A DNA stretch of 33,879 nt, from positions 1-33,879 of IMG/VR virus record IMGVR_UViG_3300046501_000410, one strand, 5' to 3'. The notes beneath the pieces were generated by a model. It had not been told where the DNA came from and did not search any database. It worked only from the letters and a program-made list of their open reading frames with translations. This document shows, piece after piece, positions 1,956 to 28,200 of this stretch. A program made the translations under genes and the position numbers. How positions within the stretch are numbered: the stretch's first letter is position 1; every line of letters starts with the position of its first letter. Source of the stretch: a virus.

Positions 1956-1965
1956 CCTGCAAGCT

Positions 1966-6348: not shown

Positions 6349-6365
6349 GTGCTGTCCAGTGTTGG

Positions 6366-8222
6366 TTAGATGGATTGGTTTTTTGTGGATGGGAAGGGCC
6401 ATTGCGCCGCTGGCACGACACGTTTCTGCTTGACCTTGACCACCGGCCCTTCCGGCGCGTGCGCGCCGCCCTGGGGCTCCTCCGCCGCCTCGGAGGAGGT
6501 CGGCCGGGGCTTGAGCGTGATCTTGCTGCGGTTGGTGGTTTGGCCTTCTACCTGGCCTGCGCCAAGAGGCTCATCGGACGCGTGCATTTCCTCATGGGCT
6601 GCAATCGTCAACAGCGTCTTATAGCCCTCGTCGCTTTCAATCTCATCGCCGCGCACGAGTTGCCAAGTTTCCACGCCCAGGCACTCGCCGAGCAACATGT
6701 CCAGCATCAGCGTCTGTACTTCGCCGGCGCCGGCCTGGTCGATATATGCGCAGACGCCGTGATCGCTGCGATCTTCAAATGGATAAAGGTCGCCGATAAG
6801 GTCGTCTGGAATCGAATGCTCACTAACCATGAGCTTCGCCAATGCCCGCAGGGATTCGATCGTCAATCCGCCGATCCCGCGATGACGGAACTGGCGGTAA
6901 ATCGCCACGCGGGTTGCGGTCTCGCGTTTTGCTCTGTCCAGCCTGGCCACGCGAGCAGCTGCCGCCTCTTCCTCGCGCTCGCGCTTTGCGATAGCGGTCG
7001 GCGCCGCAGCTGCAGTTGCTTGCTGTGCATCCCAAGCTTCCTTCGACAGGCACACACCGGCCTTTTCTGCGGCCTGCTGCAAGTTGGCCTTGTCGTACAG
7101 TTTCCGCACCTTCCCGTTATCGAGCTTAACGATGGCCTTGGCCGGGGGCAGCTGGCTTTCGCTGAGAACGGCACTAAGCAGGGCCATGCGATCAACGTTG
7201 GGTGCTAAGCGGTCCAACTTCCAAAGGCCGGCATCACCAAATACGCTGGTCAGGTCGCCCAGCGTGGCGGTGGCTTCGGCGCCTTCCAGGACGGGCACGT
7301 TCTCCTTCGTGGCTATCCGGATGATGCGCTCGTCATGGGCTGCGTTCTTCTCGGCGAAGCAGTCAGGGTCAGTGCAGATATTCTTGTCCACGTCCGGATA
7401 CAGCACTGGATCGTTGCCAGTGCGCTTCGGGCAGCGCGCGCATGAGCCGGCCTTCGCCAGCAGCTTGCCATCGCCTGGCTCGAACCTGGCCTGATCCAGC
7501 GCCAGCGTGTACCGCGCCTCGATCCAGTTGCGCGCCGCGCGTACCGACATGGGCTCATTGCCATGCTGTGGTTTCAGTATCTCGCCCAGCGCCTTGGTCT
7601 GGAGCTTGGGTACCGGAATGCGTGCGATCAGCAGCGCGGTCGAGGCCGGAAGGACGTCGATGTTGTCCAGGAATTGCTCGCGTACCTCAAGGGTGAGCGC
7701 GCACAGCTTGAGCCGGCCGTAGATGTAGCTGCGGCTTTTGTTCAGGCGCTCGGCCAGCTGGTCGGCCGTGTAGCCGTGCGACATCATCAACTGCTGGTAG
7801 CCTTCCGCTTCCTCCTGCGGGTGCGGATCTTCACGCTGCAGGTTTTCCAGGATCTGCAGTTCCAGCGCATCGTGGTCAGACAGCGTGCGGGAGATTGCAG
7901 GGATGCGCTCCAGTTCGGCCATGACGGAGGCGCGGAAGCGGCGCTCGCCGGCGACGATCTCGAACTGCTGGGGCTCTTTCGCGGTTGGGGTGACTGGGCG
8001 GATGAGGATTGGCTGTGCGACGCCTTTGGCTTTGATGCTCGCGCTTAGCTGGGCCAGCTTCTCGGCATCAAAGCGCTTGCGGTTGGTGCGCGAGATACGG
8101 ATGCTGCCAAGGCTGAACTGGCCGAAGGTGCTGCCGTCGCTCATCACCAGTTCGTCAACGACGATCGGGCGGTCACTAGGGGCCGGAGCGGGTGCCGGCA
8201 GGGTGATCAGATGTGTGCTCAT
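6366..8222 (-). CDS. ParB-like nuclease/CTPase-fold protein without a ParA partner
   Basis: The protein has 618 residues from ATG 8222, with AAGGA 11 bases upstream; an open frame extends further but its residues look non-coding. After a Pro/Ala-rich start, the ParB/Srx domain spans about 35-135 with GERRFRA (92-98) and ENLQRED (126-132). An HTH region follows at about 150-175 (TADQLAERLNKSRSYIYGRL). Around residues 258-292 four to five Cys in CARC and CTDPDC patterns suggest a metal site. A long Ala-, Glu- and Arg-rich linker and a C-terminal domain complete it. Chromosomal ParB proteins spread from parS using CTP; phage orphan homologues have poorly known roles in regulation, DNA protection or segregation. 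No parA gene is visible. A 16-bp palindrome about 470 bases upstream could be its site. Confidence 0.88.
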   Translation of the reverse strand: MSTHLITLPAPAPAPSDRPIVVDELVMSDGSTFGQFSLGSIRISRTNRKRFDAEKLAQLSASIKAKGVAQPILIRPVTPTAKEPQQFEIVAGERRFRASVMAELERIPAISRTLSDHDALELQILENLQREDPHPQEEAEGYQQLMMSHGYTADQLAERLNKSRSYIYGRLKLCALTLEVREQFLDNIDVLPASTALLIARIPVPKLQTKALGEILKPQHGNEPMSVRAARNWIEARYTLALDQARFEPGDGKLLAKAGSCARCPKRTGNDPVLYPDVDKNICTDPDCFAEKNAAHDERIIRIATKENVPVLEGAEATATLGDLTSVFGDAGLWKLDRLAPNVDRMALLSAVLSESQLPPAKAIVKLDNGKVRKLYDKANLQQAAEKAGVCLSKEAWDAQQATAAAAPTAIAKREREEEAAAARVARLDRAKRETATRVAIYRQFRHRGIGGLTIESLRALAKLMVSEHSIPDDLIGDLYPFEDRSDHGVCAYIDQAGAGEVQTLMLDMLLGECLGVETWQLVRGDEIESDEGYKTLLTIAAHEEMHASDEPLGAGQVEGQTTNRSKITLKPRPTSSEAAEEPQGGAHAPEGPVVKVKQKRVVPAAQWPFPSTKNQSI

Positions 8223-8239
8223 AGAGTAGCGATCCTTGA

Positions 8240-8659
8240 TTAATCGCGGTCGTTCGCCGCGTGCTTTTTGAAATCGAAGCGCTGCGGTGCCAGCTGCGCC
8301 TTGCGGCGTGCTTGTGCCTCGGCCATGCGTTTGAGGCCGATCTGCAGCGCGGGAGTGAGGGCGGGGGTGACGGTGATGCTGCAAGGGCAATCGCCATGGG
8401 CACCGGAGGTGTCCATGTAGACGTCCATGCTGGAGCGGCCGGTTGTCACGAAGCTATGCGTTCCCGCTGCATCGCGCACGGTGACGTCGAAGATGCCGAG
8501 CAATAGGGCGAAGCGCTTTAAGGCGCAGCGCAGGTCGTCCGCGGTGTCGCCTGGGAAGCTGGACATGCCGTCGCCTTCGAGGATCTCAAGCGCGGCCGAC
8601 GCGGCGTGGAAAAGGTCTGCGGCTGGCGTACCTGGCGCGACGGTTTCGACGGCGTTCAT
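8240..8659 (-). CDS. Hypothetical 139-aa early protein
   Basis: The frame starts MNAVETVAPGTPAADLFHAA and ends in a basic tail with KKHAANDRD. The first half looks helical (a LRCALKRFALLLGIF segment). The middle has a short CPC motif and a strand-rich part. No family is recognised. It overlaps the upstream 60-aa gene by four bases and ends 17 bases before parB, so it is the second gene of the leftward operon. Confidence 0.7.
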   Translation of the reverse strand: MNAVETVAPGTPAADLFHAASAALEILEGDGMSSFPGDTADDLRCALKRFALLLGIFDVTVRDAAGTHSFVTTGRSSMDVYMDTSGAHGDCPCSITVTPALTPALQIGLKRMAEAQARRKAQLAPQRFDFKKHAANDRD

Positions 8660-8838
8660 TTCGCTTCCCCGATGCGTGCTTCGGTGAGTGCAGACGTCTG
8701 CACTGGACGCGTCAACTTGCCGAGGCCGCGCGCTGCGATATAGGCGTGACCCTTCAAACCTCTGTAGGGATCAGGCTTGGTATGGTCTTGTGTAGCGCCA
8801 GTGTTCGGCGTTTTGATTACTGATTTTGCAATGGTCAT
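8656..8838 (-). CDS. Hypothetical 60-aa protein, first gene of leftward operon
   Basis: Two adjacent ATGs occur at 8841 and 8838; GGAG lies 3 bases before the first and 6 before the second, so the second is preferred. The short basic protein contains the 16-bp palindrome at 8688-8703 within its coding sequence. It is the first gene after the PL promoter. No family is recognised; position equivalents in other phages are often small regulators. Confidence 0.6.
   Translation of the reverse strand: MTIAKSVIKTPNTGATQDHTKPDPYRGLKGHAYIAARGLGKLTRPVQTSALTEARIGEAK
8688..8703. repeat. 16-bp palindrome GTGCAGACGTCTGCAC, copy 1
   Basis: The site is perfectly self-complementary. The identical 16 bases recur at 17325-17340, and a near copy lies at 26998-27015. 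It lies in the gene between PL and the ParB-like gene. It is a candidate protein-binding site; a parS-like role is an inference from size, symmetry and neighbourhood. Confidence 0.7.
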
Positions 8839-8866
8839 CATGCGCTCCAGCTATCGAAGGAAGCCC

Positions 8867-8896
8867 ATGATAAGGCAATGCTTTACTGTTGGTCAA
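8867..8896 (-). promoter_or_regulatory. PL-type promoter of the leftward early operon
   Basis: On the minus strand TTGACC (8896-8891) and TATCAT (8872-8867) are separated by 18 bp, each matching five of six consensus bases. The first leftward gene starts 28 bases downstream. A 19-bp operator-like sequence overlaps the -10 box and spacer, which predicts repression by CI or Cro. Confidence 0.8.
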
Positions 8897-8935
8897 GCGA
8901 AAAGCAAAGCTTTGCTTGACCAAATTTGCTTGACC
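8869..8935. promoter_or_regulatory. OL-like operator region: one 19-bp operator plus GGTCAAGC half-sites
   Basis: The 19-mer at 8869-8887 matches 15 of 19 positions of the PR-proximal operator at 9773-9791 and overlaps the PL -10 box. Upstream of the -35 lie three 8-bp half-sites: GGTCAAGC at 8891-8898 and its complement GCTTGACC at 8914-8921 and 8928-8935. The last two are in direct orientation 14 bp apart. The same half-site core occurs in the operators next to cI. Confidence 0.75.
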
Positions 8936-8938
8936 TAG

Positions 8939-8961
8939 AAAAAAGCCCGCGATTTGCGGGC
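8939..8961 (-). terminator. Rho-independent terminator of the repressor gene
   Basis: On the minus strand GCCCGC pairs with GCGGGC (8961-8956 with 8950-8945) around a 5-base loop, followed by six T. It begins 24 bases after the CI stop codon and ends before PL, so it insulates repressor transcription from the early operon. Confidence 0.85.
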
Positions 8962-8984
8962 CATGTGGGGTGAGACGTTGGCGC

Positions 8985-9698
8985 TTACCGCCGGCGGGCT
9001 TTTCGGCGGTGTTCCGCCATTACCCCAATGATCACCAGCGGGGTAATGTCGCTACGGAGAGTGGGGTAGTCATCGTTGAGGGGCGCCAATTCGAAGATCA
9101 CGTTTCCATCTCTATCCGTCCCGCGGGGCCGGTATTTTTTGAAGGTTGCCTCTTCATGGCCATTCTTTGCAGCTACGTACTCACCTGGGCGCGGTTCCCA
9201 TTCGGGCTCAATAATTACGAAGTCTCCGGGCCGGAATTCCGGTGCCATCGACTCTCCCTCAATCTCGAGGGCAAACGCCCACTTCGAGTATTCGTCATCG
9301 GTGTAAAGTGCCGCGTACCCATCTCCTAGGGCGTATGGCTCAACGATCTCTCTTAATGCGCCTGCTTGTATTGCGGAAATCACGGGTATGGCTCTTCTAC
9401 CGATCGGTGCAGGGGAAACGTTGGCGTCAAATTTTGGTTGCGTGGTGGCAACTACACGCAATTTACCATATTTGGACGGCTCGGTAGCTGCGTCATTGAG
9501 AAACCAATTGATGTCCAGATCGAGTAGCTCCGAGAGCTTCAGCAAGTTGGGTTTGCTAATTCTCCCGAATGTTTCCCATCCCGTTATTGACTGCTTTGTC
9601 ACGCCGATAGCTTCAGCGATTTCTTTCTTGCTCTTGCCGCTATCTGTAATGGCCTGGCGGATCTTCTCAGACAACGTTTGGAGTGGCGTGGCAGTCAT
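8985..9698 (-). CDS. CI-type repressor, XRE HTH plus S24 peptidase domain
   Basis: The frame is open well upstream, but ATG 9698 begins a normal repressor of 237 residues: an HTH of the XRE type at about 10-65 (KKEIAEAIGVTKQSITGWE), a linker, and an S24/LexA-like domain. The autocleavage site is Ala112-Gly113. Ser150 (ESMAPEFRPGD) and Lys187 form the expected Ser-Lys dyad, 37 residues apart as in LexA. It should bind the 19-bp operators at PL and PR, keep the prophage silent and be inactivated by RecA-stimulated self-cleavage after DNA damage. It is transcribed leftward, divergent from the Cro-like gene, with its own terminator. The maintenance promoter could not be located with confidence. 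Confidence 0.93.
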   Translation of the reverse strand: MTATPLQTLSEKIRQAITDSGKSKKEIAEAIGVTKQSITGWETFGRISKPNLLKLSELLDLDINWFLNDAATEPSKYGKLRVVATTQPKFDANVSPAPIGRRAIPVISAIQAGALREIVEPYALGDGYAALYTDDEYSKWAFALEIEGESMAPEFRPGDFVIIEPEWEPRPGEYVAAKNGHEEATFKKYRPRGTDRDGNVIFELAPLNDDYPTLRSDITPLVIIGVMAEHRRKARRR

Positions 9699-9715
9699 TT
9701 GTATGTTGTCCGGGT

Positions 9716-9791
9716 AATCAAGCAATGCTTGATTGTCTGTTGATATGGACCAGTCAATCAATACTTGACCACGGTAAGGCGTTGCTTTACC
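9716..9791. promoter_or_regulatory. OR-like operator region: three 19-bp operators
   Basis: Site 1 (9716-9734) is a perfect 9+1+9 palindrome, AATCAAGCA-A-TGCTTGATT. Site 2 (9752-9770) shares 14 of 19 positions with it. Site 3 (9773-9791) is an imperfect palindrome of the same size with the GC..TGCTT core. Sites 2 and 3 overlap the PR -35 box and the spacer plus -10 box; site 1 lies toward cI and may govern its own promoter. This triple arrangement between divergent repressor genes parallels lambda OR. Confidence 0.8.
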
Positions 9792-9793
9792 AT
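9765..9793 (+). promoter_or_regulatory. PR promoter of the rightward early operon
   Basis: TTGACC at 9765-9770 and TACCAT at 9788-9793 are 17 bp apart. Both boxes are covered by operator sites 2 and 3. The predicted start of transcription near 9800 lies at the ATG of the Cro-like gene (9801). Confidence 0.7.
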
Positions 9794-9800
9794 CCATCGC

Positions 9801-10055
9801 ATGAACACTCCTTTCCAAAAAGCATGCGACATAGTCGGCGCCGCGCAGTTGGCGCAAATCCTCGGCGTTTCGCCCCAAGCGATCAGCGAATGGCGGAAAG
9901 CGAAACGTCCCATCCCCCTTGAGCGGTGCGCTCAGATCGAGCAGGCGACTGAAGTGCAAGTTACTTGCGAAGAGCTCCGGCCCGATAGGAGCGAGTTCTG
10001 GGCTTACCTGCGTCTGCCCACCAGCAATCCTGCGCCCGGCGACCGTCTGAAATGA
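9801..10055 (+). CDS. Cro/YdaS-like HTH repressor
   Basis: ATG 9801 gives 84 residues. An HTH occupies about residues 8-50 (AAQLAQILGVSPQAISEWRK then RPIPLERCAQIEQAT), the pattern of YdaS and Cro-like phage proteins. The C-terminal 30 residues are polar. It is divergent to cI and the first gene of the rightward operon, so it should act as the lytic-switch repressor at the shared operators. No ribosome-binding site is visible before the ATG and the PR start point coincides with it, so the mRNA may be leaderless. An upstream ATG at 9765 lies inside the promoter and is rejected. Confidence 0.85.
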   Translation: MNTPFQKACDIVGAAQLAQILGVSPQAISEWRKAKRPIPLERCAQIEQATEVQVTCEELRPDRSEFWAYLRLPTSNPAPGDRLK

Positions 10056-10131
10056 CGGCCCTTCGCCTTGCATAACTTAATCATAGCAATAACAAAATAC
10101 TTATAAAACCCAAGGACCCGAAGGAACTACT

Positions 10132-10608
10132 GTGGAACTGCTTTCTGCTTACCAAGAAATGATCAAGGTTCATGGCTGGAACGGCACCGCCGCCACCCTG
10201 GGCCTCACTAAGTCCGCACTCGAAGCGCGCGTCTATGAAGTCAAGGGCGTCGGCATGCGGGTTGATACTGCGATGCTGATTCAACGGTACGCCGGAACCA
10301 AGCACTTCGCCCAGGCGATCGCTTTCGCATCCGGCGGCGTGTACTGCGATTTGCCAGAACTGGATGAGGGCGTCTATGACGACCCGGAAGCTAAATTCTT
10401 GGAGGTGTCGATCGAACTGGGCGAACTCGCTGCTGCCTATAAAAAGGCGAAGGCGGATGGCGTCATCAGTCGCGCCGAGCGGAATCAGCTGCAGGGCATA
10501 GAACAAGCTATGCACAAGACCATGCGCGAGCTGACTGCGGCAATGTTTCGCCGTTACGGTCCAGATATGGTGGCAGACGCTGCAGTGAGCGAGGCCGTCA
10601 ATGTCTGA
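10132..10608 (+). CDS. YmfL-like phage regulatory protein
   Basis: The start is a GTG at 10132 with AAGGA 6 bases upstream, giving 158 residues. The first 70 residues (GWNGTAATLGLTKSALEARV then YEVKG and DTAMLIQRYAGT) match the pattern of YmfL-like proteins, putative CII-type regulators of lambdoid prophages. The region HFAQAIAFASGGVYCDLPEL is also typical. A helical C-terminal part contains a possible coiled coil. In this position it probably influences early gene choice or replication timing, but direct evidence for the family is thin. It overlaps the next gene by 8 bases. Confidence 0.7.
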   Translation: MELLSAYQEMIKVHGWNGTAATLGLTKSALEARVYEVKGVGMRVDTAMLIQRYAGTKHFAQAIAFASGGVYCDLPELDEGVYDDPEAKFLEVSIELGELAAAYKKAKADGVISRAERNQLQGIEQAMHKTMRELTAAMFRRYGPDMVADAAVSEAVNV

Positions 10609-11020
10609 TGCCAACTGCTACCCACGCCGCGACAGCATGGCCTTCGCTGGCCTGCAGACCTTATTCAATATTGGCGGCGTTGCGACCTCCGATGCATGGC
10701 GTGAGGCCGCCGGTTCCGTGCTGACTGCTTACCAGTTTCAGACGCGCGTTATCAACGTGCTGAAGTTGCATGGGCTGGTAGATCCCGGCGCCACGCACAG
10801 CATCACAGACGCCGGCAGGACCACTCTCGGCGAACCAACTTTGGCGAAGGCTCCTTCGTTCGGCGATGTGGCGCAACCACGCACCGCGCGCCCGTTTTCG
10901 CCTATGAAATCGCGTAGCCGCAGTTCAATGGTTTACCGCGAAGGTGCTTTTGACTATAGGCAATACCCATCCCTGGCCGGCGGCCAACGCATCCCGTACA
11001 AAGCTGATGGCAACACTTAA
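10601..11020 (+). CDS. Hypothetical 139-aa protein, possible winged-helix
   Basis: The protein starts MSDANCYPRRDSMAFAGLQ. Residues 15-75 (TSDAWREAAGSVLTAYQFQ, followed by VLKLHGLVD and ITDAGR) resemble a winged-helix domain with an ITxAGR wing, common in small phage proteins before replication genes. The C-terminal third is basic and Ser/Arg-rich. Its 3' end overlaps the primase start by 14 bases. A role in replication or regulation is inferred from position only. Confidence 0.65.
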   Translation: MSDANCYPRRDSMAFAGLQTLFNIGGVATSDAWREAAGSVLTAYQFQTRVINVLKLHGLVDPGATHSITDAGRTTLGEPTLAKAPSFGDVAQPRTARPFSPMKSRSRSSMVYREGAFDYRQYPSLAGGQRIPYKADGNT

Positions 11021-13775
11021 TGATGTAACAGTGCAGATGGCGGTGGACCTGCCGCCTCTGCCGTCTGGCCATCCCATACTCAACGGCAAAATCAACAAGT
11101 TCGGCAAGGGCAAAAAGGCCTGGTACAAGCTGAGCGAGATCGTGCTGCGCAACGGCCAACGTGTGGTGACCGGTTGGTATGGTCACTTCCACGGCCGCGA
11201 TCCTGGCACGGTCAAGGTGGAGTTCGATTGGACTGGGCTGAGTGAAGACGATCGCGCGGAAATCCATCGGCGCCAAGCTGAAAAGGCGCGAGAGGAAGAG
11301 CAACGCCGCCAGCGCGCAGCAGAGCGCGCAGCAGGCCGCGCACGGCAGCAGTGGATGCGCGCCGAGCCCGCATCGAGCGTCGCGCTGGTTCCGTACCTGG
11401 TGCGCAAGTGCGTGAGCGGAGACTTTGCGCGGGTCGATGAGCACGGCAACCTTCTGGTGCCGGCACGCCGCTACCTTGACGGGCGCGCCGAACTGGTATG
11501 CGTGCAGAAAATCGACAGCGAGGGCGAGAAGCGCTTCAATGGCGGAGCAGATATGGTTGGTGCGGTTTGCTTGCTGGGCAAGCTGACGCCTGAGACCATG
11601 CGGATAGGGATTGTCGAAGGCTATGCCACAGGCCAGTCCGTACGCATGGCCACCGATTGCGCCATGCCCGTCATGGTCGCGTTCAATGCCGGCAACCTGG
11701 CTGCGGTGGCACGGCAGCTGCGCACAGACTTCCCCGATGCCGAGATCATCTTCTTTGCCGACGACGATTGGCAGCTGGAGCAGCGCTTCCTGCGCGACCT
11801 ACTGGCCGAGTTCGAGGTGGCGCTCGCGCCGCCAATCGATGGCAAGGACCATGTCGTCACAACGGACTCCGGCGGCCGCGTCGAGATTCGCGCCACCTGG
11901 CGTGAGGACGCGACTGGCACAAGCTACATCGAGGCTGATGTGCGCGCCGGCCGTCGCATGCGAATGCTCAAATTCGAGAATGCCGGCATCGCTTCGGCGC
12001 GCGCAGCCGCGGATGAGGTGGGCAATGCGCGCGTCAACTGGCCGGTGTTCGCGAATCGGGGAGATAACAAGTGGACTGACTGGAACGACCTGCACGTGCA
12101 GGAGTCGCTGGACGTTGTCCGCAAGCAGTTCGCCGCCGTGCTGGCGGCTGATGCTGGCATTCAGGACACAGCGCCGGACGATTTCGTTGCGGCCTCTCCC
12201 GCGCCCACACAAGCGCCGCCCGCTGCTGCAGCGCATGTCAACGAGCCAGCACCGCCGGCGGCTCTTCCCGCTCCCACCGAAGAGGAGGCGCTGCCGCAGC
12301 TACGCGCGCCGACGCTGGAAGTGCTGCTGGCGCACTTCGCGCTGATCTACCCGACCACGGACGTATGGGACGGCCTGCGCAAGCAACGTCTCAAGCGCAG
12401 CGCCTTCACGGCATGGGTCGGCAAGGAACTGGCGGCCAGCTGGGAGAAGAGCGAGCAGCGCCGCGCGATCGTGCGCGAGTCCTTGCCGACGCTGATCGGC
12501 GGCCGCGCAGCTGAGGGAGGGGCGGGAGGCGGACGGCTGGGGGAGATGCTGAGCCAGCTTACGCTGCTGCGTGGCACAGAGACGGTGTGGGACGGTGTGG
12601 GCCAGCAGGTGATGAGCCTGGGGGCGGTACGCGCCAACTACACGACCGAGATCACGAACAAGTGGCAAGAGCATGAGCAGCGTAAGACGATCGAAGCGCG
12701 CAACCTGGTGTTCGATCCGACGCAGCAAGCGAACCCGGATACTCACGTCAACATCTTCGTCGGCTGGCCTTTGACGCCAAAGAAGAACGAGGCACTGCTC
12801 CACCCAATCCTCGCGCTCCTCGACTCGCTGTGCTCGGCGGAAGACAACGTCGATGCCTGCGTGGAATGGGTGCTGTACTGGCTGGCCTATCCGCTCCAGC
12901 ATCCCGGCGCCAAGATGCAGAGCGCGCTGCTGTTCTTCGGCGAAAAGCAGGGCACCGGCAAATCGCTCTTCTTCCAGGACATCGTGGCCCAAATCTATGG
13001 CGAGTACGGCACGGTCGCCAGTCAGCACCAGCTTGACTCCAGCTTCACGGCCTGGCGCTCGCGCAAGCTGTTCGTCCTGTTCGAAGAAGTGCTGTCGCGG
13101 GAGGACAAGTACAGCCACAACGGCACGCTCAAGTACATGATCACCGGCCGCGACATGAGCATCAACCAGAAGAACCTGCCGGAGCGCACCGAGCGCAACC
13201 ACATGAACAGCGCCTTCCTCTCGAATGAGCCGCAGCCGATTCCGATCGAGCTGGAAGACCGGCGCTTCCTGGTGATCGAGGCGCGCAAGAAGCAGGCGCA
13301 GGAGTTCTATGACGCTGTGCGCCGGTCGATCGATGCCGGCGGCGTTGAGGCGTTCTATCACTTCCTGCTCAGCCTCGATCTGGGCGACTTCAACGAGCAC
13401 ACCAAGCCACCGATGACGCTGGCCAAAGAGCGCGTGATCGAGTTCGGCCTGAACGGCTGGATGTCATTCCACCGCGCATGGAAAGACGGCTACCTGGATG
13501 CGCCTTACTGCACCTGCCTGACCGAGGACTTGTACAACGTGTACCGGCGCTGGTGCGACAAGAGCGGAGAGAAGCCGCTGACGCTGACCAAGTTCAGCGG
13601 CCTGATCGCCAGTCGGGAGCACAAGGCCAAGCGCAAGGTGGCGGTGGGCAAGAAAGCCAAGATGAGCCGGATGGTGTACGAGATTGAGAACCCCGAGGAG
13701 CCGGGCACGCTGGAGCAGCAGATCGAGTCCTTCCGAAAGAGGGCCGATGTCAGGGCCGATGGTGCACTCGGTTGA
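11007..13775 (+). CDS. Phage primase-helicase (TOPRIM plus SF3-type DUF5906 helicase)
   Basis: From ATG 11007 the protein has 922 residues; a GTG at 10944 in frame would add 21. A basic N-terminal region with an Ala/Arg/Glu-rich helix (about 85-115) precedes a TOPRIM domain: EGYATG near residue 203 and FFADDDW near 251. After a Pro/Ala linker (about 390-430) comes the helicase half. Its Walker A, GEKQGTGKS, begins near 645. Its Walker B, LFVLFEE, lies near 688, and a SNEPQPIPIELEDRRF sensor segment near 738. It should prime and unwind DNA at the phage origin in the cytoplasm. The iteron-like array directly after its stop is the likely target. The small ATPase at 5551-6348 is a paralogue of its helicase half. 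Confidence 0.9.
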   Translation: MATLNDVTVQMAVDLPPLPSGHPILNGKINKFGKGKKAWYKLSEIVLRNGQRVVTGWYGHFHGRDPGTVKVEFDWTGLSEDDRAEIHRRQAEKAREEEQRRQRAAERAAGRARQQWMRAEPASSVALVPYLVRKCVSGDFARVDEHGNLLVPARRYLDGRAELVCVQKIDSEGEKRFNGGADMVGAVCLLGKLTPETMRIGIVEGYATGQSVRMATDCAMPVMVAFNAGNLAAVARQLRTDFPDAEIIFFADDDWQLEQRFLRDLLAEFEVALAPPIDGKDHVVTTDSGGRVEIRATWREDATGTSYIEADVRAGRRMRMLKFENAGIASARAAADEVGNARVNWPVFANRGDNKWTDWNDLHVQESLDVVRKQFAAVLAADAGIQDTAPDDFVAASPAPTQAPPAAAAHVNEPAPPAALPAPTEEEALPQLRAPTLEVLLAHFALIYPTTDVWDGLRKQRLKRSAFTAWVGKELAASWEKSEQRRAIVRESLPTLIGGRAAEGGAGGGRLGEMLSQLTLLRGTETVWDGVGQQVMSLGAVRANYTTEITNKWQEHEQRKTIEARNLVFDPTQQANPDTHVNIFVGWPLTPKKNEALLHPILALLDSLCSAEDNVDACVEWVLYWLAYPLQHPGAKMQSALLFFGEKQGTGKSLFFQDIVAQIYGEYGTVASQHQLDSSFTAWRSRKLFVLFEEVLSREDKYSHNGTLKYMITGRDMSINQKNLPERTERNHMNSAFLSNEPQPIPIELEDRRFLVIEARKKQAQEFYDAVRRSIDAGGVEAFYHFLLSLDLGDFNEHTKPPMTLAKERVIEFGLNGWMSFHRAWKDGYLDAPYCTCLTEDLYNVYRRWCDKSGEKPLTLTKFSGLIASREHKAKRKVAVGKKAKMSRMVYEIENPEEPGTLEQQIESFRKRADVRADGALG

Positions 13776-14025: not shown

Positions 14026-14051
14026 GACAGATTGATAACGAGAGGCTGATG

Positions 14052-14807: not shown

Positions 14808-14900
14808 CCGCCCCCACCCCCATCAAGGTACTTCCAGCGGGTCAGCTGGACGAGGGTGATTCAGACCCCGTCGAAACGCTAGTGGGTGCCGAAAACATTT

Positions 14901-14948: not shown

Positions 14949-15474
14949 AATTGCAAAGTGGGCCGAGTCGCTGGGGATCTCCCGCCAGCAAGGGTACACC
15001 GCCCTGGAGCGCTGCGAGATCCCCGTCACCGATGGGAAGGTGGACGCCGAGTACGCGACCATGCTGTATCACCGGAACACGCGGCCGCGCGCCAATTCGC
15101 GGCGCGACCAGGCCGAGACCTCGGCCCCCGGCAACCTGGGGAGCGCGCCGCAGCCGGACAACACGCCTAGCTACGAAAAGAGCCGCGCCAGACGGGAGGC
15201 GGCGGAGGCGGCGCAGGCCGAGATGAAGGCGGCGGATATGGCGGGCCTGTACCTGGTGAAAGAGGATGTCGATGCCGTGGCCTATGAGGTGGCGCGCGCC
15301 ATTCGGGACGGGCTGACGAACTGTGCGCGCCGAGTCGCCAGCGACGTGGCTGGCCGAAGTTCCGCGGAGGAGTGCGAGGAGATCATCGACCGGGAACATC
15401 GTGCCCTGCTGGAGAATATGGCGCTGACCTTCAAGGCTCGCCTGGGCGTGGTCGGGGGATCGGACAGCCAATGA
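14932..15474 (+). CDS. Terminase small subunit (DUF1441/Nu1-like)
   Basis: The protein has 180 residues. The N-terminal domain (TIAKWAESLGISRQQGYTAL, then a RCEIPVTDGKVD wing) is a winged-helix DNA-binding domain of the kind in Nu1 and DUF1441 proteins. A polar linker follows, then a helical region with an Ala/Glu-rich coiled coil (about residues 80-105) and a C-terminal helical part. It should recognise the packaging site and recruit the large subunit. The gene overlaps the large-subunit start by four bases. No good ribosome-binding site precedes the ATG, whose surroundings are occupied by the CCTGACAAC repeats. Confidence 0.82.
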   Translation: MPNLTTIAKWAESLGISRQQGYTALERCEIPVTDGKVDAEYATMLYHRNTRPRANSRRDQAETSAPGNLGSAPQPDNTPSYEKSRARREAAEAAQAEMKAADMAGLYLVKEDVDAVAYEVARAIRDGLTNCARRVASDVAGRSSAEECEEIIDREHRALLENMALTFKARLGVVGGSDSQ

Positions 15475-17516
15475 CGCCCGCCATCGCCATCGTCGCCGAC
15501 GCCTTTGCGCGTGGACTGGAGCCGGACCCGAACATGACCGTCGATGCGTGGAGCGAACGCTACATGGTCATCCCTAAATCGACCGGCGCTAATGAGTACG
15601 GCAAGTACCGCGTCTCGCGCACACCGCACGCGCGCCAGGTGATGCTGGCGCTTTCCGATAACCATCCTTGCAAGCGCGTGGCACTGATGGGCGCGTCCCA
15701 GATGCTCAAGACGCAGGTTGGCCTGAACTGGTTCTGCGCCAGCGTGCACCAGTCACCGTCGAACTTCCTCTGGATTCTGCCGACTGGCAAGCTGCAAAAG
15801 AGGACCAGCACCCGTATCGCCAAGACCATCGACGCGGTGCAGGAGGTGCGTGAGCGGGTGGCGGCGCCGCGCTCGCGCGACTCCGTCAACACGATGGATA
15901 CCAAGGAATACGTCGGCGGTGCGCTGACCATCGTCACGGCCGGCGCCGCCGCCAATCTGTCCGAGCTGCCGGCGCGCCGCGTGCTGTTCGATGAGGTGGA
16001 CCGCGCGGTGATGAACGTGGATGGCGAGGGTAGTCCCGTTGCGCTGGCCGAAGCGCGCCAGACGACATTCCAGCGCAATCGCAAGGCCTACTATCCCAGC
16101 TCGCCAACAATCGAGGACGAGTCGATCATCGCCGGCTTGTATGCGCAGGGCACGCAGCACGAGGCACTGGCCGACTGCGTGCATTGCGGCCATGCGCAGC
16201 CGCTGGTGTTCGAGCGCCTGCAGCTGGCGAGCGATGGTGTCACCGCGATGTATCCATGCGCCGAGTGCGGCGCCTTCATGTACGAATCAGACAAGACGCG
16301 CATGTTCGCGCGCGGCGCCTGGTCGGAGGGCGTCGTGGGCGACGGCGAGACGGAAAGCTTCACGATCAGTGGCATGTTCCTGCCGTACGGCTGGGTATCC
16401 TGGAGCGTGCTGATGACCGAGTATGCGGCCGCGAAGGCGGCGCTGGAGAAGGGTGACGACACGCTCATGATCACCTTCTACAACACGCGCCTGGCGCGCT
16501 GCTGGGCGCGCGCGAAGGAGAAGACCAAGCATGAGGAACTCATGGCGCGTGCTGGATCCTATCTGCTGGGTTGGGTGCCCCCTGAGGGGATGGTGTTGAC
16601 CGCCAGCTTCGACACGCAGAACGACCGCCTGGAGTTCAAAGTTGTCGCATGGGGTGAAGGCCTTGAGGGCTGGATTGTGGATTTCCAAGTGATCCATGGC
16701 GACCCTGCCGACGAGGCGACGTGGCGAAAGGCCGAGGCGCTGGTGAACGGGCGCTACCGCCATGCGTACGGCGAGCTACTTCGCATTGAGGCCACGTTCG
16801 TGGACTCGGGCGGCGCCCACACACAGGACGTCTACAACTTCACCTATGCCATGCGCAAGCGCGGCGTGCACGCCATCAAGGGCTCATCCAAACCTAACCG
16901 CCCGATCATCAGCAGCAAGCCCAGCCTAGTGGATATTACCGCCAAGGGAAAATCCGAGAAGCGCGGCGGCAAGCTGTGGTTCATCGGTACGGATACGGCG
17001 AAGGATTACTTGGCAAGCCGTTGGAAGCTTAGCGAAGGGGCCGGTGCTATCCACTTCCCCGGCAACCTGCCCGAAGACTATTACAAGCAGCTGACCGCCG
17101 AGTATCGGGTGACCAAGTACAAAGGTGGCCACCGGGTCAGCGTATGGGAAATGAAGAAGGGTGACCGCAACGAAGCTGGCGACCTGATGGTCTACAACTT
17201 GGCTGCTGCGCACCATTTGGGGTTGCATAGAAAAGGTGAAGCCTGGTGGCAGTCATTGCGCGAGAAGCTGAACCCGCGAAATATGGACATGTTCAAGTCG
17301 CTGGACTTGCCAGCCGTGCCGGATGTGCAGACGTCTGCACATACTCTGGGCGAGCAGAGGGAAGCGCGCCCGGAGCATGTCGAGATCCAACCCCGAATCG
17401 CGACGCCGCTGCCAACAGCGGTGGCAGTAGCTCAGGTTGTGGCGCCAGTTGTACCCGCGCGCCCGGCTTCAGGCGGGAAGATCTCGCTGTCTGGTCTGCG
17501 CAGGGGGATGCGATGA
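15471..17516 (+). CDS. Terminase large subunit, GpA family
   Basis: ATG 15471 (ATGA overlap with the small subunit) gives 681 residues, near lambda gpA in length. The ATPase has a degenerate Walker A, GASQMLKT (74-81), and Walker B, VLFDEVD, with Asp174-Glu175. Two CxxC pairs (Cys236/239 and Cys263/266) form the zinc-finger insert common in this family. The nuclease domain begins at SFDTQNDR with Asp381. The enzyme pumps DNA into the procapsid and cuts it at packaging. The C-terminal 60 residues are Pro/Ala/Val-rich, include the coding of a 16-bp palindrome (17325-17340), and look unstructured. The gene is ATGA-coupled to the Mor-like gene. Confidence 0.95.
   Translation: MTPAIAIVADAFARGLEPDPNMTVDAWSERYMVIPKSTGANEYGKYRVSRTPHARQVMLALSDNHPCKRVALMGASQMLKTQVGLNWFCASVHQSPSNFLWILPTGKLQKRTSTRIAKTIDAVQEVRERVAAPRSRDSVNTMDTKEYVGGALTIVTAGAAANLSELPARRVLFDEVDRAVMNVDGEGSPVALAEARQTTFQRNRKAYYPSSPTIEDESIIAGLYAQGTQHEALADCVHCGHAQPLVFERLQLASDGVTAMYPCAECGAFMYESDKTRMFARGAWSEGVVGDGETESFTISGMFLPYGWVSWSVLMTEYAAAKAALEKGDDTLMITFYNTRLARCWARAKEKTKHEELMARAGSYLLGWVPPEGMVLTASFDTQNDRLEFKVVAWGEGLEGWIVDFQVIHGDPADEATWRKAEALVNGRYRHAYGELLRIEATFVDSGGAHTQDVYNFTYAMRKRGVHAIKGSSKPNRPIISSKPSLVDITAKGKSEKRGGKLWFIGTDTAKDYLASRWKLSEGAGAIHFPGNLPEDYYKQLTAEYRVTKYKGGHRVSVWEMKKGDRNEAGDLMVYNLAAAHHLGLHRKGEAWWQSLREKLNPRNMDMFKSLDLPAVPDVQTSAHTLGEQREARPEHVEIQPRIATPLPTAVAVAQVVAPVVPARPASGGKISLSGLRRGMR
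17323..17342. repeat. 20-bp palindrome containing GTGCAGACGTCTGCAC, copy 2
   Basis: The 20 bases are perfectly self-complementary and include the same 16-mer as at 8688-8703. The site lies in the low-complexity C-terminal tail of the terminase large subunit, where coding constraint is probably weak. Confidence 0.7.
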
Positions 17517-17812: not shown

Positions 17813-17831
17813 CAAGTTCGCTCACTCCATA

Positions 17832-17855: not shown

Positions 17856-17857
17856 AA

Positions 17858-18085: not shown

Positions 18086-18086
18086 C

Positions 18087-19694: not shown

Positions 19695-19702
19695 AGTCCT
19701 AT

Positions 19703-19738: not shown

Positions 19739-19784
19739 GATCGATAAAGTTGGTGAACCGAAACACACCAGCGCCTATCGATCG

Positions 19785-21101: not shown

Positions 21102-21136
21102 GCCACGGTCTCTTTAACCCACTTCAAGGAATCCAT

Positions 21137-21475: not shown

Positions 21476-21510
21476 TCAGCATCCCCATCCAATACCCATA
21501 AGGAAACCAT

Positions 21511-22446: not shown

Positions 22447-22455
22447 GGACCGACC

Positions 22456-22617
22456 ATGAAAATTCTGATCACTTCCCCTGTTGAACATGACGGCAAGCGC
22501 TTGCCGCTGGATAAGGTGGTAGACCTGCCGGACGATGCCGCACTCGCGCTGGTGGCTGCTGGTGTGGCCGAGCGCCTGGGCAAGGGCAGGGCAGCCGACG
22601 ACACCGAAAAGGTCTGA
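22456..22617 (+). CDS. Small 53-aa head-region protein
   Basis: ATG 22456 starts MKILITSPVEHDGKRLPLDK and the frame ends with TEKV. Nine bases separate it from the capsid gene and 7 from the next start. The pattern (short strands, then DLPDDAALALVAAGVAERL) is a known small family in this place in many phages; its function is not established. It is short but fills the gap exactly and shows coding character. Confidence 0.75.
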   Translation: MKILITSPVEHDGKRLPLDKVVDLPDDAALALVAAGVAERLGKGRAADDTEKV

Positions 22618-22624
22618 GTCACAC

Positions 22625-22909
22625 ATGATCGGCTCCGACCTGACCCCCTTCTTTGTGCCTGGTGAATTTGTGCTGGAGGGTGACGCACTCAACGGCGCGC
22701 CCGTCGCCGGCATCTTTGACGCGGCCTACGCCGTGACGGGGGAGGGCATGGGAATGGCTGACACGCACCCGGTCTACACCATGGCGAGCGTTGCAGTACC
22801 GGCCCAGTCCGTCGGCCTGGTGCTGGTCTGCGCTGGTGCCCGCTACGAAGTGGTTGACACGCAGTCAGACGGCACAGGCGTGACGTTGCTGATCCTGGAA
22901 TGCCTTTGA
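22625..22909 (+). CDS. Head-tail joining protein (gpFII-like)
   Basis: ATG 22625 gives 94 residues. The sequence is beta-rich with alternating hydrophobic residues (VYTMASVAVPAQSVGLVLVC then YEVVDTQSDGTGVTLLILE), similar in length and character to lambda gpFII attachment proteins. These sit between the connector and the tail. The stop codon overlaps the next start by one base. Confidence 0.65.
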   Translation: MIGSDLTPFFVPGEFVLEGDALNGAPVAGIFDAAYAVTGEGMGMADTHPVYTMASVAVPAQSVGLVLVCAGARYEVVDTQSDGTGVTLLILECL

Positions 22910-23340
22910 TGCCCAGCGCGTTCTCCGACATCACCGGCGCTTTGGTTGCCCTGCTCGAAGCCACACCACCGCTGGTGGCGCGGGTCTATCGCGCGCGGGA
23001 TCGCCAAATCCCGGAAGGCGCGGACAGCGCCCTGAACGTGCAGTTCGACGGCGGCGTGCCCGATCGCGGGGCAATCAAGGATGCGCCGGTGGACTGGCGC
23101 TCAAGGTTCACGATCGAGTGCTATGCCAGGACAGTGGCCGGTGCGCCGGACGAGGCGGTGGATCCCCTGATCGTCGGCGTCTACGAGCGGCTTGCCGCTG
23201 ATACCACGCTTGGCGGACTGGTGGACGACATCGAGGGACCGATGATCGAGGCCGACTACAGCAGCGACGGCAAGAAAGCAGGGTGGGTGCGCATGACATA
23301 TGTGATCGCCCATCGCACCACAAATTTACTACTGGGATAA
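22909..23340 (+). CDS. Tail terminator / minor tail protein (gpU/Z-position)
   Basis: The protein has 143 residues from ATG 22909. It has an alpha/beta pattern starting with a helix (SDITGALVALLEATPPLVAR) and strands such as RSRFTIECYAR and KKAGWVRMTYVIAH. Position before the tail tube gene suggests a terminator that caps the tail and joins it to the head. The exact equivalent in lambda (gpZ or gpU) cannot be decided by eye. Confidence 0.65.
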   Translation: MPSAFSDITGALVALLEATPPLVARVYRARDRQIPEGADSALNVQFDGGVPDRGAIKDAPVDWRSRFTIECYARTVAGAPDEAVDPLIVGVYERLAADTTLGGLVDDIEGPMIEADYSSDGKKAGWVRMTYVIAHRTTNLLLG

Positions 23341-23342
23341 CC

Positions 23343-23501
23343 ATGGCAACGAAGAATACGAAACTGGCCGGGACGGCCGATACCGATGCGGTCGTTCCGC
23401 CCGCACTGCCAGGTGGCGGCTCGTGGCGCTGGACTGGCGCGGAATGGGTGAAGGCGAGTTCGCCGGACGAGGCCGTTGTTACCAACACTACCGAGGAATA
23501 A
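23343..23501 (+). CDS. Small 52-aa tail-region protein
   Basis: ATG 23343 lies 2 bases after the previous stop, and the frame ends 3 bases before the tail tube start. The protein is Thr-, Pro- and Gly-rich with GGGSWRWTGAEWVKA. The Trp-rich centre is shared by small phage proteins in this location, but I know no function. It fits the tight packing of the operon. Confidence 0.65.
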   Translation: MATKNTKLAGTADTDAVVPPALPGGGSWRWTGAEWVKASSPDEAVVTNTTEE

Positions 23502-23504
23502 ACC

Positions 23505-24473
23505 ATGCCACGCTATATTCGAAATACCGTCATCCTGGCTAAGGTCGAGACCACGGCAGGCGCCGACGCGCTGCCGACCGGCGCCGCCAACGCGATCCTG
23601 GTCTCCGACTTCAGCATCACCCCGCTGGAGGCCCAGAACATCGACCGCAACCTGGTGCGCGGCTACTTCGGCGCCAGCGAGCAGCTGGTTGGCCCGGCCA
23701 GCGTCAAAGTCAGTTTCTCGGTCGAACTGGCCGGCTCTGGCACCGCCGCCACCGCCCCGGCCTGGGGCGTGCTGCTGCAGGGCTGCGCGGCCGGCGAGGG
23801 CCTGCTCGTTACGCCGAACCGGGTCGAGTACTCGCCGGTGTCCGCCGCCCTCAAGACGCTCACCATCTACTACTACGACGACGGCGTGCTGCACAAGCTG
23901 CTGGGCGTGATGGGCGACGTCACCATCAGCGCCAAGATCGGCGAGCGCCCGATGCTCAAGTTCGACTTCGTCGGCCTCGACGGCGGGGTCAGCGCCGCCA
24001 GCGCCAGCGGCACCTTCACCGCCTGGAAGAAGCCGGTGGCGATGACCAAGGCCAACGTGGTCGACATCACGCTCGGCTGCACCTACGCCGCCGGCGCGAT
24101 TTCCGGCGGCGTCGTCTATCCGAGCACCGGCCTGGAGCTCAAGTTCGGCAACTCGGTCGGCTACACGGCGCTGCTTTCGAGCGAGACGGTCGACATCACC
24201 GACCGCGACTCGACCGGCTCCATCGAGCTGGACCTGACGGCGGCGCAGGAGGTGACGCTGATGGCGACCGTCAAGGCCAGCACCACCCAGGGCCTGGGCT
24301 TGACCATCGGCACCGCGGCCGGCAACAAGATCATCCTGTACGCGCCCGCGACCCAGCTGCTGGCGCCGAAGAAGGTCGACAAGAACGGCAAGCGCCTGAT
24401 CGGCTTCGACACCCGCTTCGTGCCGACCCCGGCCGGCGCCGGCAACGACGAATGGGTGATCGTCACCCAGTAA
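23505..24473 (+). CDS. Major tail tube protein
   Basis: The protein has 322 residues, almost all beta-strand-like, with repeated Gly, Thr and Val patterns (VSFSVELAGSG, LKTLTIYYYDD, AKIGERPMLKFDFVGLDGG). The position between head-tail joining genes and the tail chaperones is that of lambda gpV. It should polymerise into the tail tube around the tape measure. Third codon positions are almost entirely G or C over the central part, more so than in the flanking genes, which may reflect separate acquisition or strong expression. Confidence 0.82.
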   Translation: MPRYIRNTVILAKVETTAGADALPTGAANAILVSDFSITPLEAQNIDRNLVRGYFGASEQLVGPASVKVSFSVELAGSGTAATAPAWGVLLQGCAAGEGLLVTPNRVEYSPVSAALKTLTIYYYDDGVLHKLLGVMGDVTISAKIGERPMLKFDFVGLDGGVSAASASGTFTAWKKPVAMTKANVVDITLGCTYAAGAISGGVVYPSTGLELKFGNSVGYTALLSSETVDITDRDSTGSIELDLTAAQEVTLMATVKASTTQGLGLTIGTAAGNKIILYAPATQLLAPKKVDKNGKRLIGFDTRFVPTPAGAGNDEWVIVTQ

Positions 24474-24510
24474 TGGCGCCCGCCTCATAACCTGAACGAA
24501 AGAGAAAAGC

Positions 24511-24870
24511 ATGGCCTATAAATTATCCGTCGCAGATGTTGTTCACGTCCCCGTGGTATTCACCCAGCCGGACGGCAACAAGACCAAGAAATTCGACTTC
24601 ACCCTGACCTGCGAGCGCAAGGGTGTGGATGAATGGACCGCCTCCATCAAGAACGAGGAGGGTGAGTTCTCGCCCGAAAAGATCAAGGAAAAGATGCTCG
24701 ATCTCGCCACCGGCTGGTGCGAACGGCAGAACTTCGTGCTGGAAGAGGACGGCACCCCGGCCAAGTTCTGTCGCGACGCGTTCGAGTACATGGTGGACCA
24801 GCCTGGCGTGCTCAACATCATCTTCAAGGCCTACGGCATTGCGAGCGCGGCAAAGGCAAAAAACTCGTAG
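24511..24870 (+). CDS. Tail assembly chaperone, short form (gpG-like)
   Basis: The protein has 119 residues, is acidic and helical (a DEWTASIKNEEGEFSPEKIK region), and ends KAKNS. It lies between tail tube and tape measure, as in lambda gene G. Its final codons contain the A AAA AAC slippery sequence, so a share of ribosomes should shift to -1 and make the long form. The short form should coat the tape measure during tail assembly. Confidence 0.85.
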   Translation: MAYKLSVADVVHVPVVFTQPDGNKTKKFDFTLTCERKGVDEWTASIKNEEGEFSPEKIKEKMLDLATGWCERQNFVLEEDGTPAKFCRDAFEYMVDQPGVLNIIFKAYGIASAAKAKNS

Positions 24871-25235
24871 CGGCTGCGCGCCTTATGGCGCGTGGCCAGC
24901 TGCGCTTCCCCGAACAGGATGAGAGCGCGCAGGCGCCGGCCGACGAGATAGCGGAGGCGCTGGCGGCTGTTGGCTTGTGCCTGGAGGACGCGGCGGACGT
25001 GATGGCCGAGGACGAATTTTATCTTTGGCCGGAGAACGTGGCGGTATTCAATTTTTGGATGCTGGTGCAGACGCAGTGGATGAGCGATAGCGGGGTTCGC
25101 ACCGGACTGAATCACGCCAGCGTCGAAGCGGATATGCGGATGGCCGGCGTGAAGAAGAAGCACCGCGCGGAGTATTTCCGACTGGTCGTCGCGATGGAAT
25201 GCGGCGCGCTGGATGAGTGGTCCAAGCAACGATAA
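24511..25235 (+). CDS. Tail assembly chaperone, long form by -1 frameshift (gpGT-like)
   Basis: Translation follows the short form up to the AAC codon at 24862-24864. It then slips back one base and continues from CTC at 24864 in the -1 frame to the stop at 25235. The product is 118 plus 123 residues, about 241. The downstream part also has an ATG at 24885, but without a ribosome-binding site. The T-like part is acidic, with an EDAADVMAEDEFYLWPENV segment and a helical C-terminus. In lambda, the ratio of G to GT matters for correct tail assembly, and the T domain recruits the tube protein. This is the expected product rather than a directly shown one. Confidence 0.85.
24858..24897 (+). promoter_or_regulatory. 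Programmed -1 ribosomal frameshift element
   Basis: The slippery heptamer A AAA AAC is at 24858-24864, in the correct phase (GCA AAA AAC). A 7-base spacer with the zero-frame TAG follows. Then an 11-bp stem pairs 24872-24882 with 24887-24897 around the loop TTAT; two of the 11 pairs are G-U. All three parts of a classical stimulatory signal are present. Confidence 0.9.
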
Positions 25236-25249
25236 AGGATAGGACAGCA

Positions 25250-28200
25250 ATGGCGTACACAACGGGAGGCGGCACTATCATCCGGATCGGTGTCGAGGGG
25301 GCGAATACCACCGAGGCCCAAATCGATCGTGTCGCTGGATCCATGGACCGGGCCGGCGGCGCTGTCGGTTCGCTGACGCAGATGTTCACGCGGCTTGCCG
25401 CCCCCATCGCCGCCACGGCCGCCGCCTATCTGGGCCTCTCGTCGGTGGTGGACGGCGTGCACGCGTCGATCGAGCGTCTGGCCCAGCTGGACGACTCGGC
25501 GCAGAAGACCGGCTCGTCGGTCGTGGAGAGCCTGTCCCGGCTGCAAAAGGTAGCCATGATGACCGGGACCGATTTCGGCCTGGTCGACAAGGCAATCTTC
25601 AACCTGGGCAAGACCCTGGGTGGCACGGATGAGGAATCGAAGAAGGCCCGGGCCGCGCTGGCCGACCTGGGCATCACCGCCAAGGATATCGAGGAACAGG
25701 ACACGGCCGCGCTGTTCATCCAAATTTCGAAGAGCCTGCAGGATTACCAGGATAGCGCCGGCAAGTCCGCCACCTTGAACGGCATCTTCAAGAAGTCGGC
25801 CGAAGATCTGGCGCCGTTCTTGAATGACGTCGCCGAAAACGTCGGGAAATTCAAGGGCCGGACGGCGGAATCCGCCGCCGCCGCCTCCACGTTCCAGGAC
25901 AACCTGGGGCTGCTCAAGGTTCGCTCGTCCGAACTGTGGGACACGCTCGCGGAAAGCTTGCTCCCGACGCTGGACACGTTCACCGGAAAATTGGCGGACG
26001 GCAGCGGTGCGCTGGGCCAGCTCACCGGTTACGTCGACGCGCTCGCCAAAGACGGAACTTTCAAGGCATGGGCCGAAGATGCGGCCAACGCCATCAATGC
26101 CCTGGTTGCCGCTGTCGTGCCCGCAGCTAAAATCACCGCCGCATACTTCGCTATCTTCGTGGCCGCGCCGGCGTTGTACTCGACCGTCGCGGGCGCGCTC
26201 TTCACCCTGACTGCCGCGGTGGCGACCTACGCGATGAATGTGCTGATCGGCCAGACCAACACCATCAAATTCAATACTGCGCTGTTCGGTACGAGTGTCG
26301 CGGCCGAGCTGGCGGCAGGTTCACTCTCCAAGGTTCGCCTGGCCGGCAACGTGCTTTTCGCTGCGTTCGCCGGCTGGGAGATCGGCACCTGGCTGCGTGA
26401 GCAGTTCGTGGAGGCACGCGTCGCTGGTTTGGCGTTCGTCGGCGCCATGCTGACGGGCTGGGAGTACGTGAGTTATGCGGCAAAGATGGCCTGGGAGGGA
26501 ATCAAGTTCACGTGGCAGGCGACCCTCAATACCATGCGCGCCGGCTTCGCTGGCTACCTATCGGTCGTGGCGGATGGACTTGCCAAGATTGGCGCCAAGC
26601 AGACGGCTGATGATGTTGCAGCGTTTGCTGAAGCGATTAGGAATGCCGGCGGTGCGCAGCAGACGTTCGCTCAGCAGACAGCGGAACTGACGGCCGAACA
26701 TCATGCCGCGCTCGACGCGATCGATCAGAACATTGTCGAGCTGGTCCAGTACGAGTTGAGCACGGCCAGCGCGACGACAGCCGACGCTGGCGCCGCTGAC
26801 CAGAAGAAGAAAAATATCAAGGTCAGTGCAGACAACAGCGACGCCATCAAGAAGGAGGCTGAAGCCTACGCCGGACTCATTTCGGGCATCAAGGCCAAGG
26901 TGGCAGAAAACCGCCTTGAGCTGGCCCTTGGCGAAGATGCGACGGATAGCCAGAAGGCATCGATCAAACTGGACCAGGAGCTGGCGGCCGGAAAACTTGT
27001 GTTGACGTCTGCACATTTAGCTGCAGCTCGCTCGGTGCTGGTCGAGCAGGCCTCCACGGAGGTATTGCTGAAGGCGCAGAAAACCGAAAAGGACGTGTTT
27101 TCCTGGATCGTTCAGAGCACGCAGGCGCGCCTTGCATCGAAGGCCGCGCTGGAAAGCGAGTATGCGCTCTACGGCCAGAGCAGTGATGCGCGCGAGCTGG
27201 CGAACGTGGGGCTCAAGGCCGAGGCCGAGCTGGAGAGGTTTCTTGCGGACGAGCGCAAGGCGGGCAAGACCATTACCGAGGAAATGCTGGGCCAGTTGCG
27301 CGTTGAAAAGGACCTGCGCGTCAGCGTGGAGCAGGCCACCCTGGCCCAGACCAAAGCGCTCAGCTATGCCGGCCAGCTGCACCAGGAGAACGCGCGCTTC
27401 GCCGCAGAGTCCATCCTGGATGAGAAGGCGCGCGCCGCCGCGCTGCTGGCCATCGACGCCGACACGTGGCAGCAGCGTATTGCGCTGACCGCCGAGGGCA
27501 CCGACGCGCGCCAAAAGCTGGAAGAAGAATACGCGACATGGTACAAAAACCAACTGGCCAAGCCGCAGATCGATGAGCAGAAAAAGTTCTGGGACTCCAT
27601 CGACAAGACCGCGCACGACACTTTCGTGAGTATCGCGGACGGAAGCAAAGACGTGGCGCAGCGACTGAAGGATGCCTTCAAAAATATATTCTTTGATTGG
27701 CTATACCAGCAGACCCTGAAGAAGTGGATCATCAGCATTGGCACCAGCTTTGGAGGGGGTGGCGCGGCTGGTGCCGTAGGCGGGGCCGCATCCGGGACTA
27801 GCAGCGTGTTGAGCGCATTCGGCAGCGCGACGAATCTGTACTCAGTTGGCAAAACCATTTTCAACGGTTTCAATTCGGGAATCACCAGCACCATCGGCGG
27901 CATCGCCACCACTTTTGGCAACAGCATCGGCAGCGCTGCGGCATCGGCCTGGGGCACCGGCCTCACGCTCACCAGCACGCAGGCAGCAGAGGCCGCTGCT
28001 GCATACACTTCGGCCGCAGCCACCGCATCGGCAGCGGGTGAATCTGCGGCAGCCAGCACCTACGCATCGACGGCCGGCGGTCTGACGGGCGGCGCGGGCG
28101 CCGCATCTGCGATCCCGATCATCGGCTGGATCATCGCCGGCATGGCCGCCGCCGACGGCTTCCGAAAGCAGGGCTTCGACCCGAACAATGGCACGACGAA

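Follow-up and report, generated by a model that had tools for sequence, protein, structure and literature searches.

The 33,879-nt stretch analysed here (the window; IMG/VR virus record IMGVR_UViG_3300046501_000410, to whose full length all coordinates refer) encodes an orphan ParB and carries three copies of a 16-bp palindrome, GTGCAGACGTCTGCAC. The palindrome is very probably the cognate parS-type loading site of this ParB, which would act as a clamp that marks the phage genome for regulation or organisation rather than for ParA-driven segregation. This reading is based on the observed conservation of the site, its linkage and confinement to the ParB, the even spacing of the sites, the failure to detect a ParA, and the cytidine triphosphate (CTP) motifs and fold of the protein, from which we infer binding, CTP switching, sliding, timing and role. 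Phages and prophages commonly encode orphan ParBs, and annotation usually labels these as partition proteins although no ParA accompanies them.

Copies of the palindrome in the window

Scanning the window showed GTGCAGACGTCTGCAC without mismatches at 8688-8703 and 17325-17340 and with two mismatches at 26999-27014, confirming the two perfect copies and the degenerate third copy reported in an earlier, sequence-only reading of this DNA. These are the only three matches at up to three mismatches, with 0.29 expected. For the 18-bp motif of the family (see below), site 1 (AGTGCAGACGTCTGCACT, 8687-8704) and site 2 (TGTGCAGACGTCTGCACA, 17324-17341) are perfect, and site 3 (TGTGTTGACGTCTGCACA, 26998-27015) has two mismatches. 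All three copies fall within reading frames. Site 1 is located in the 3' end of a 61-residue open reading frame (ORF), ~466 bp upstream of parB, a position that recurs in many relatives. Site 2 lies near the 3' end of the large terminase gene terL (15372-17516), and sites at or near the terL 3' end are also found in G028, G034, G035, G036, G037 and G043. Site 3 lies inside the tape-measure gene (25217-30103); it is weak, and judged by the window alone it is the most doubtful copy. A chance repeat of a compositionally favoured word might be suspected from a window with three copies only, one of them degenerate. However, three matches were reached in 0 of 100 shuffles of the window and the palindrome recurs family-wide, leaving chance a negligible probability.

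Linkage of the palindrome to ParB

Relatives were gathered via a profile of 10 ParB relatives, not via the palindrome, and together with two phages and two plasmid records they make up 84 loci. When the window ParB alone was used to scan the proteins of viral contigs, no relatives came up, whereas the 10-relative profile did retrieve them. Across the 84 loci, 50 exact copies of the palindrome and 66 copies with one mismatch lie outside parB; 300 control palindromes built from the permuted half-site average 0.003 (exact) and 0.04 (one mismatch). All 50 whole virus records carry the palindrome at up to one mismatch, with 1-7 sites each, and none carries the reversed word, which supports the phage parS-like set proposed in the sequence-only reading. 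An exact 16-mer scan of IMG/VR yielded 119 stretches, 22 of which already included a ParB relative; among a further 18 records of at least 30 kb with the 16-mer but without a ParB in the retrieved stretch, 14 encode the ParB elsewhere. A relative deposited as a circular Comamonas plasmid of 36.9 kb has six sites at up to two mismatches, as does the mitomycin-inducible phage VarioGold, whose ParB is VG_p35. As the sequence-only reading anticipated, the palindrome stays with the ParB though gene positions differ among relatives.

Phages without this ParB were compared using loci gathered by the primase and the large terminase of the window. The loci with the ParB (n=6) hold 17 sites in 125 kb, whereas those without it (n=99) hold four sites in 1646 kb. 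The four sites sit in three of the 99 loci (one or two each), and the records of these loci have no ParB_N match. One ParB-less locus, L414, starts close to the primase, and parB may lie off its end. In close primase relatives without the ParB, the corresponding arm encodes a large protein that, judged by eye, resembles a cytosine-C5 methyltransferase (L446, 996-3182; L460, 2934-5027).

The scan of bacterial contigs yielded chromosomal ParBs almost exclusively, and these loci were used as a negative control; prophages were found by genome search instead. In one bacterial family, 22 of the 294 genomes encode this ParB. Of these host genomes 21 were examined, and 19 have sites at one mismatch or fewer (86 sites in total), which cluster near parB on long contigs (G341, G151, G204, G203 and G300), compared with one site in 16 genomes (~77 Mb) without the ParB. 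The chromosomal ParB loci carry the canonical parS TGTTTCACGTGAAACA in 48 cases and the phage palindrome in none. Conversely, TGTTTCACGTGAAACA is absent from the phage ParB loci and has no match in the window at up to three mismatches. The counts in host DNA and in ParB-less phages thus agree with a site that belongs to this ParB, and each check on sequences put forward in the sequence-only reading favoured that reading.

Motif, lineage variants and the copy inside parB

Taken over 144 different non-parB contexts, the full motif reads W-GTGCA(G)ACGT(C)TGCAC-W; it is 18 bp long, with flanks that carry no information. Its central ACGT is common to this site and the canonical parS, with differences in the flanking bases. 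The contrast between the two centres drawn in the sequence-only reading is reduced to the bases flanking ACGT. Palindromic lineage variants were found in Aval (GTGCACACGTGTGCAC) and in G299 (GTGCATACGTATGCAC); the Comamonas plasmid and VarioGold have half-variants of GTGCACACGTGTGCAC. The G305 prophage (L408-L409), which has a diverged ParB, carries the variant site TTGCAGACGTCTGCAA four times around parB, once as CTGCAGACGTCTGCAA; G305 offers a natural case in which to study site-protein co-evolution.

Many relatives have a palindrome copy inside parB near codon 270, over the C4-motif codons (ADVCTD). This copy is exact in 33 of 86 genes, where codon usage predicts 0.23. Its Ser is encoded by AGT 47 times out of 48, against 7% across the gene, and its Ala by GCA 68 times out of 73, against 23% across the gene. 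The synonymous codons are thus locked, indicating that selection acts on the DNA, and this test ruled out a coding artefact as the cause of the copy. It is highly implausible that the word is kept for coding or composition (the zinc-motif codons ADVCTD) or as the AatII restriction site GACGTC and is not a protein-binding site. The in-parB copy does encode the conserved C4 motif, and the core does contain GACGTC. However, the 144 non-parB contexts have just the 18-bp palindrome in common, codon usage falls far short of accounting for the locked codons, and GTGCACACGTGTGCAC and GTGCATACGTATGCAC destroy GACGTC yet stay palindromic, on which ground the restriction-site reading was rejected.

The ParB protein

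The orphan ParB of 618 residues is encoded on the minus strand at 6366-8222. The open frame (6366-8390) begins at a distant TTG, and the ATG at 8222 is the likelier start. With this start, site 1 is upstream of parB as the sequence-only reading held, but not just upstream, as a 139-residue ORF (8240-8659, minus strand) without a family match occupies part of the ~466 bp between them. The ParB-like nature of the protein is real, with domain matches to ParB_N (PF02195, E=2e-23) and HTH_ParB (PF17762, E=4e-11). The sequence includes the CTP motifs GV.QPILIRP, AGERRFRA and ENLQRED, a helix-turn-helix (HTH) with the recognition helix SYIYGR, and a C4 motif (C261-C264...C283-C288). Within the CTP-pocket motifs (GERRxRA and ENxQRxx..EEA), residues G92, R95, N127, R130, E137, E138 and A139 are invariant in 62 ParBs, and the motifs as a whole are invariant or almost so. 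The AlphaFold2 model has a predicted local distance difference test (pLDDT) score of 85.9, with low confidence for residues 1-20, and over residues 27-241 it is structurally similar to Caulobacter ParB and Noc (both Z 17.1) and to KorB (Z 15.9). The C-terminal region has no Pfam domain match; in the model it shows a coiled coil (395-451) plus C-terminal helices. The intact CTP-clamp motifs and the ParB/Noc/KorB fold of the model suggest that the protein binds CTP, closes and slides.

In Caulobacter ParB, K171, S172 and R173 contact parS (PMC7383237). These contact residues are largely kept in the phage ParBs as K162, S163 and R/K164. In our alignment on the GKSR motif, a further Caulobacter contact residue, N178, appears to have given way to G or A beside the invariant Tyr168, which fits an altered site specificity. 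The absence of ParA claimed in the sequence-only reading held up, with no PF13614 match in 51 records (positive control 14/14) and no ParA-binding motif at the ParB N terminus in any of 62 relatives.

Layout of the sites around the phage genome

Sites recur upstream of and within parB, near the beginning of the ORF that precedes terS, near the terL 3' end and near the major tail gene, in combinations that vary. When sites less than 2.5 kb apart were merged, the spacing was more even than random (1.164 vs 1.314 ± 0.045). This evenness has P ~0.0003 after removal of near relatives, which reduces but does not eliminate phylogenetic dependence. The median gap between sites is 8.5 kb. Because a typical genome of 35-45 kb carries 3-7 sites ~6-12 kb apart, almost any point in it is no more than 7.5 kb away from a site (median 99% of the genome), so that ParB could selectively label or cover phage DNA.

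Several observations weigh against a loading site of the ParB. A few records, G357, G360, G348 and G359, hold the palindrome without the ParB. The G357 record stops just past its upstream site, and the palindromes of G348 and G359 remain unexplained. Conversely, G126 encodes this ParB but has no site at up to two mismatches in its draft assembly. In the window itself, the copy inside parB has been lost and site 3 is degenerate. Finally, the sites are mostly intragenic but show some intergenic enrichment, with 27 of 127 sites in intergenic DNA that makes up 7.2% of the sequence by rough gene calls. This distribution fits dispersed loading and some promoter regulation alike.

In G360 (L404-L405), where the palindromes are retained, the place of parB in the left operon is taken by the gene of a 1012-residue nucleoside triphosphatase (31586-34621) with the P-loop LLVGEPGSGKSVALRH; this protein is possibly a defence cargo of the NACHT/AAA type.

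Predicted control of parB

The gene parB belongs to a leftward operon whose first ORF is the 61-residue frame at 8656-8841 (minus strand), with site 1 near its 3' end. Similarly, in several relatives a small ORF on the parB strand ends 29-38 nt beyond the upstream site. The predicted promoter of the operon (TTGACC-18-TATCAT, 8867-8896, minus strand) overlaps a CI-operator-like repeat at 8871. A predicted intrinsic terminator (8944-8962, minus strand) separates the operon from cI, which encodes a CI-type repressor with an HTH and an S24 peptidase domain (8985-10073, minus strand; likely start near 9698). The CI-operator-like repeats flank cI, at 8871 and 8905 on one side and at 9718 and 9754 on the other. 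By analogy with lambdoid phages, parB is predicted to be an early gene in a CI-repressed early-left operon, off in lysogens. Such control suggests a lytic or early use of ParB and argues against simple lysogenic segregation; of the roles offered in the sequence-only reading (organisation, segregation or regulation), segregation in this simple form thus fits less well.

The CI-operator-like repeats differ from the palindrome, and the reading of the palindrome as a CI operator was rejected. More broadly, the palindrome might be the operator of some other phage protein that travels with the ParB, such as CI, CII or another regulator. The intergenic enrichment of the sites and the detection of CII relatives in many of these phages favour such an operator. 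However, CI has its own, different repeats at its promoters, the palindrome is nearly absent from phages that share the primase or terL but lack the ParB, many relatives hold a synonymously constrained copy within parB, and the length, symmetry and central ACGT of the palindrome agree with ParB sites. An operator of another protein is thus improbable.

It is somewhat less improbable, but still unlikely, that the ParB and its sites form a partition system, segregating an episome or phage-plasmid through a host ParA or by hitchhiking. The ParB-parS homology and the circular Comamonas plasmid with its six sites are in line with partition. The lack of a detected ParA and of the ParA-binding motif, the dispersed rather than clustered sites and the predicted CI repression of parB are not. 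The window also encodes a tyrosine integrase (2825-3883, minus strand), from which the phage is predicted to integrate, and relatives were found integrated in chromosomes.

Two further parts of the window were noted. A 283-residue ORF adjoining parB (5551-6402, minus strand) resembles the helicase part (DUF5906) alone of the primase-helicase at 10944-13775, and by this resemblance it appears to be a partial second primase-helicase copy in the parB operon. Beyond the integrase lie an alpha/beta hydrolase-like gene (1945-2835, plus strand) and an unassigned gene (611-1624, plus strand), possibly host flank or cargo.

Discussion

The evidence favours the palindrome as the loading site of the phage ParB, and we judge the pair to be a ParB-parS variant that would work like KorB or Noc. 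In the proposed mechanism, ParB dimers would recognise the 18-bp palindrome via their diverged HTH, then bind CTP and close as a clamp that would slide out over the neighbouring DNA. Loading from the dispersed sites could mark or coat nearly the whole phage genome. It would probably occur on induction or infection, because parB is in the predicted CI-repressed early-left operon. The role would be a genome-wide regulation or organisation similar to that of KorB, Noc or VirB, not ParA-driven prophage segregation. More tentatively, and with somewhat less than even confidence, we propose that evenly tiled clamp loading coats the phage chromosome and not host DNA, a ParA-independent genome marking in the lytic phase that would represent an undescribed class.

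Comparison with chromosomal ParABS shows the same CTP-binding ParB_N fold with an HTH, a 16-bp palindrome with central ACGT, and a model match to Caulobacter ParB (Z 17.1). However, the phage system is phage-borne, has no detected ParA and no ParA motif, uses another site, has dispersed instead of clustered sites, and its protein has an extra C4 motif and C-terminal region. Noc and its Noc-binding sites (NBS), which serve nucleoid occlusion in Firmicutes, share with it an orphan ParB paralogue without ParA, dispersed palindromic sites and the same model match (Z 17.1). The phage sites differ in tiling a 35-45 kb genome, and the NBS TATTTCCCGGGAAATA has no match in the window at up to three mismatches. 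KorB of plasmid RK2 is a CTP clamp of the ParB fold with 16-bp operator (OB) sites, including ones far from the target promoters, and demonstrates that a clamp carried by a mobile element is able to regulate distant promoters (PMC11790492). The phage ParB is likewise a ParB-fold protein (Z 15.9 to KorB) on a mobile element, with candidate sites of the 16-bp type. The OB-like TTTAGCSGCTAAA is not enriched in the window, with one two-mismatch match vs 0.35 expected. VirB of Shigella employs CTP, and its role is to regulate genes, not to segregate DNA (PMC10770331). VirB with its virS site resembles the phage pair in that VirB too is an orphan relative of ParB carried by a mobile element, but differs in protein length and site.

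The phage ParB belongs to the broad class covered by a 2025 survey of orphan phage and prophage ParBs, proteins of the ParB fold on mobile elements without the ParA motif (PMC12704722). The main text of that survey does not mention palindromes; the present analysis goes beyond it with a candidate binding site and its genome-wide layout. The palindrome sequence was not found in the literature searched. The VarioGold paper gives the VarioGold ParB by domain name only (PMC9658991), and the site is not described in two papers on other ParB phages (PMC5871888, PMC4490671). Relative to the sequence-only reading, the 18-bp motif, the constrained copy inside parB, the even family-wide spacing and the predicted CI-repressed operon are new.

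A large temperate-phage ParB family thus gains a candidate DNA target, an even tiling of ~8 kb and a likely expression window, and the function of orphan phage ParBs becomes directly testable. The palindrome can serve as a computational marker for these phages, and a ParB-site pair of changed specificity is material for studying the evolution of ParB recognition. If the proposed coating of the genome is true, it would enable the phage to distinguish its own DNA from that of the host, in transcription control, antisilencing, replication or packaging.

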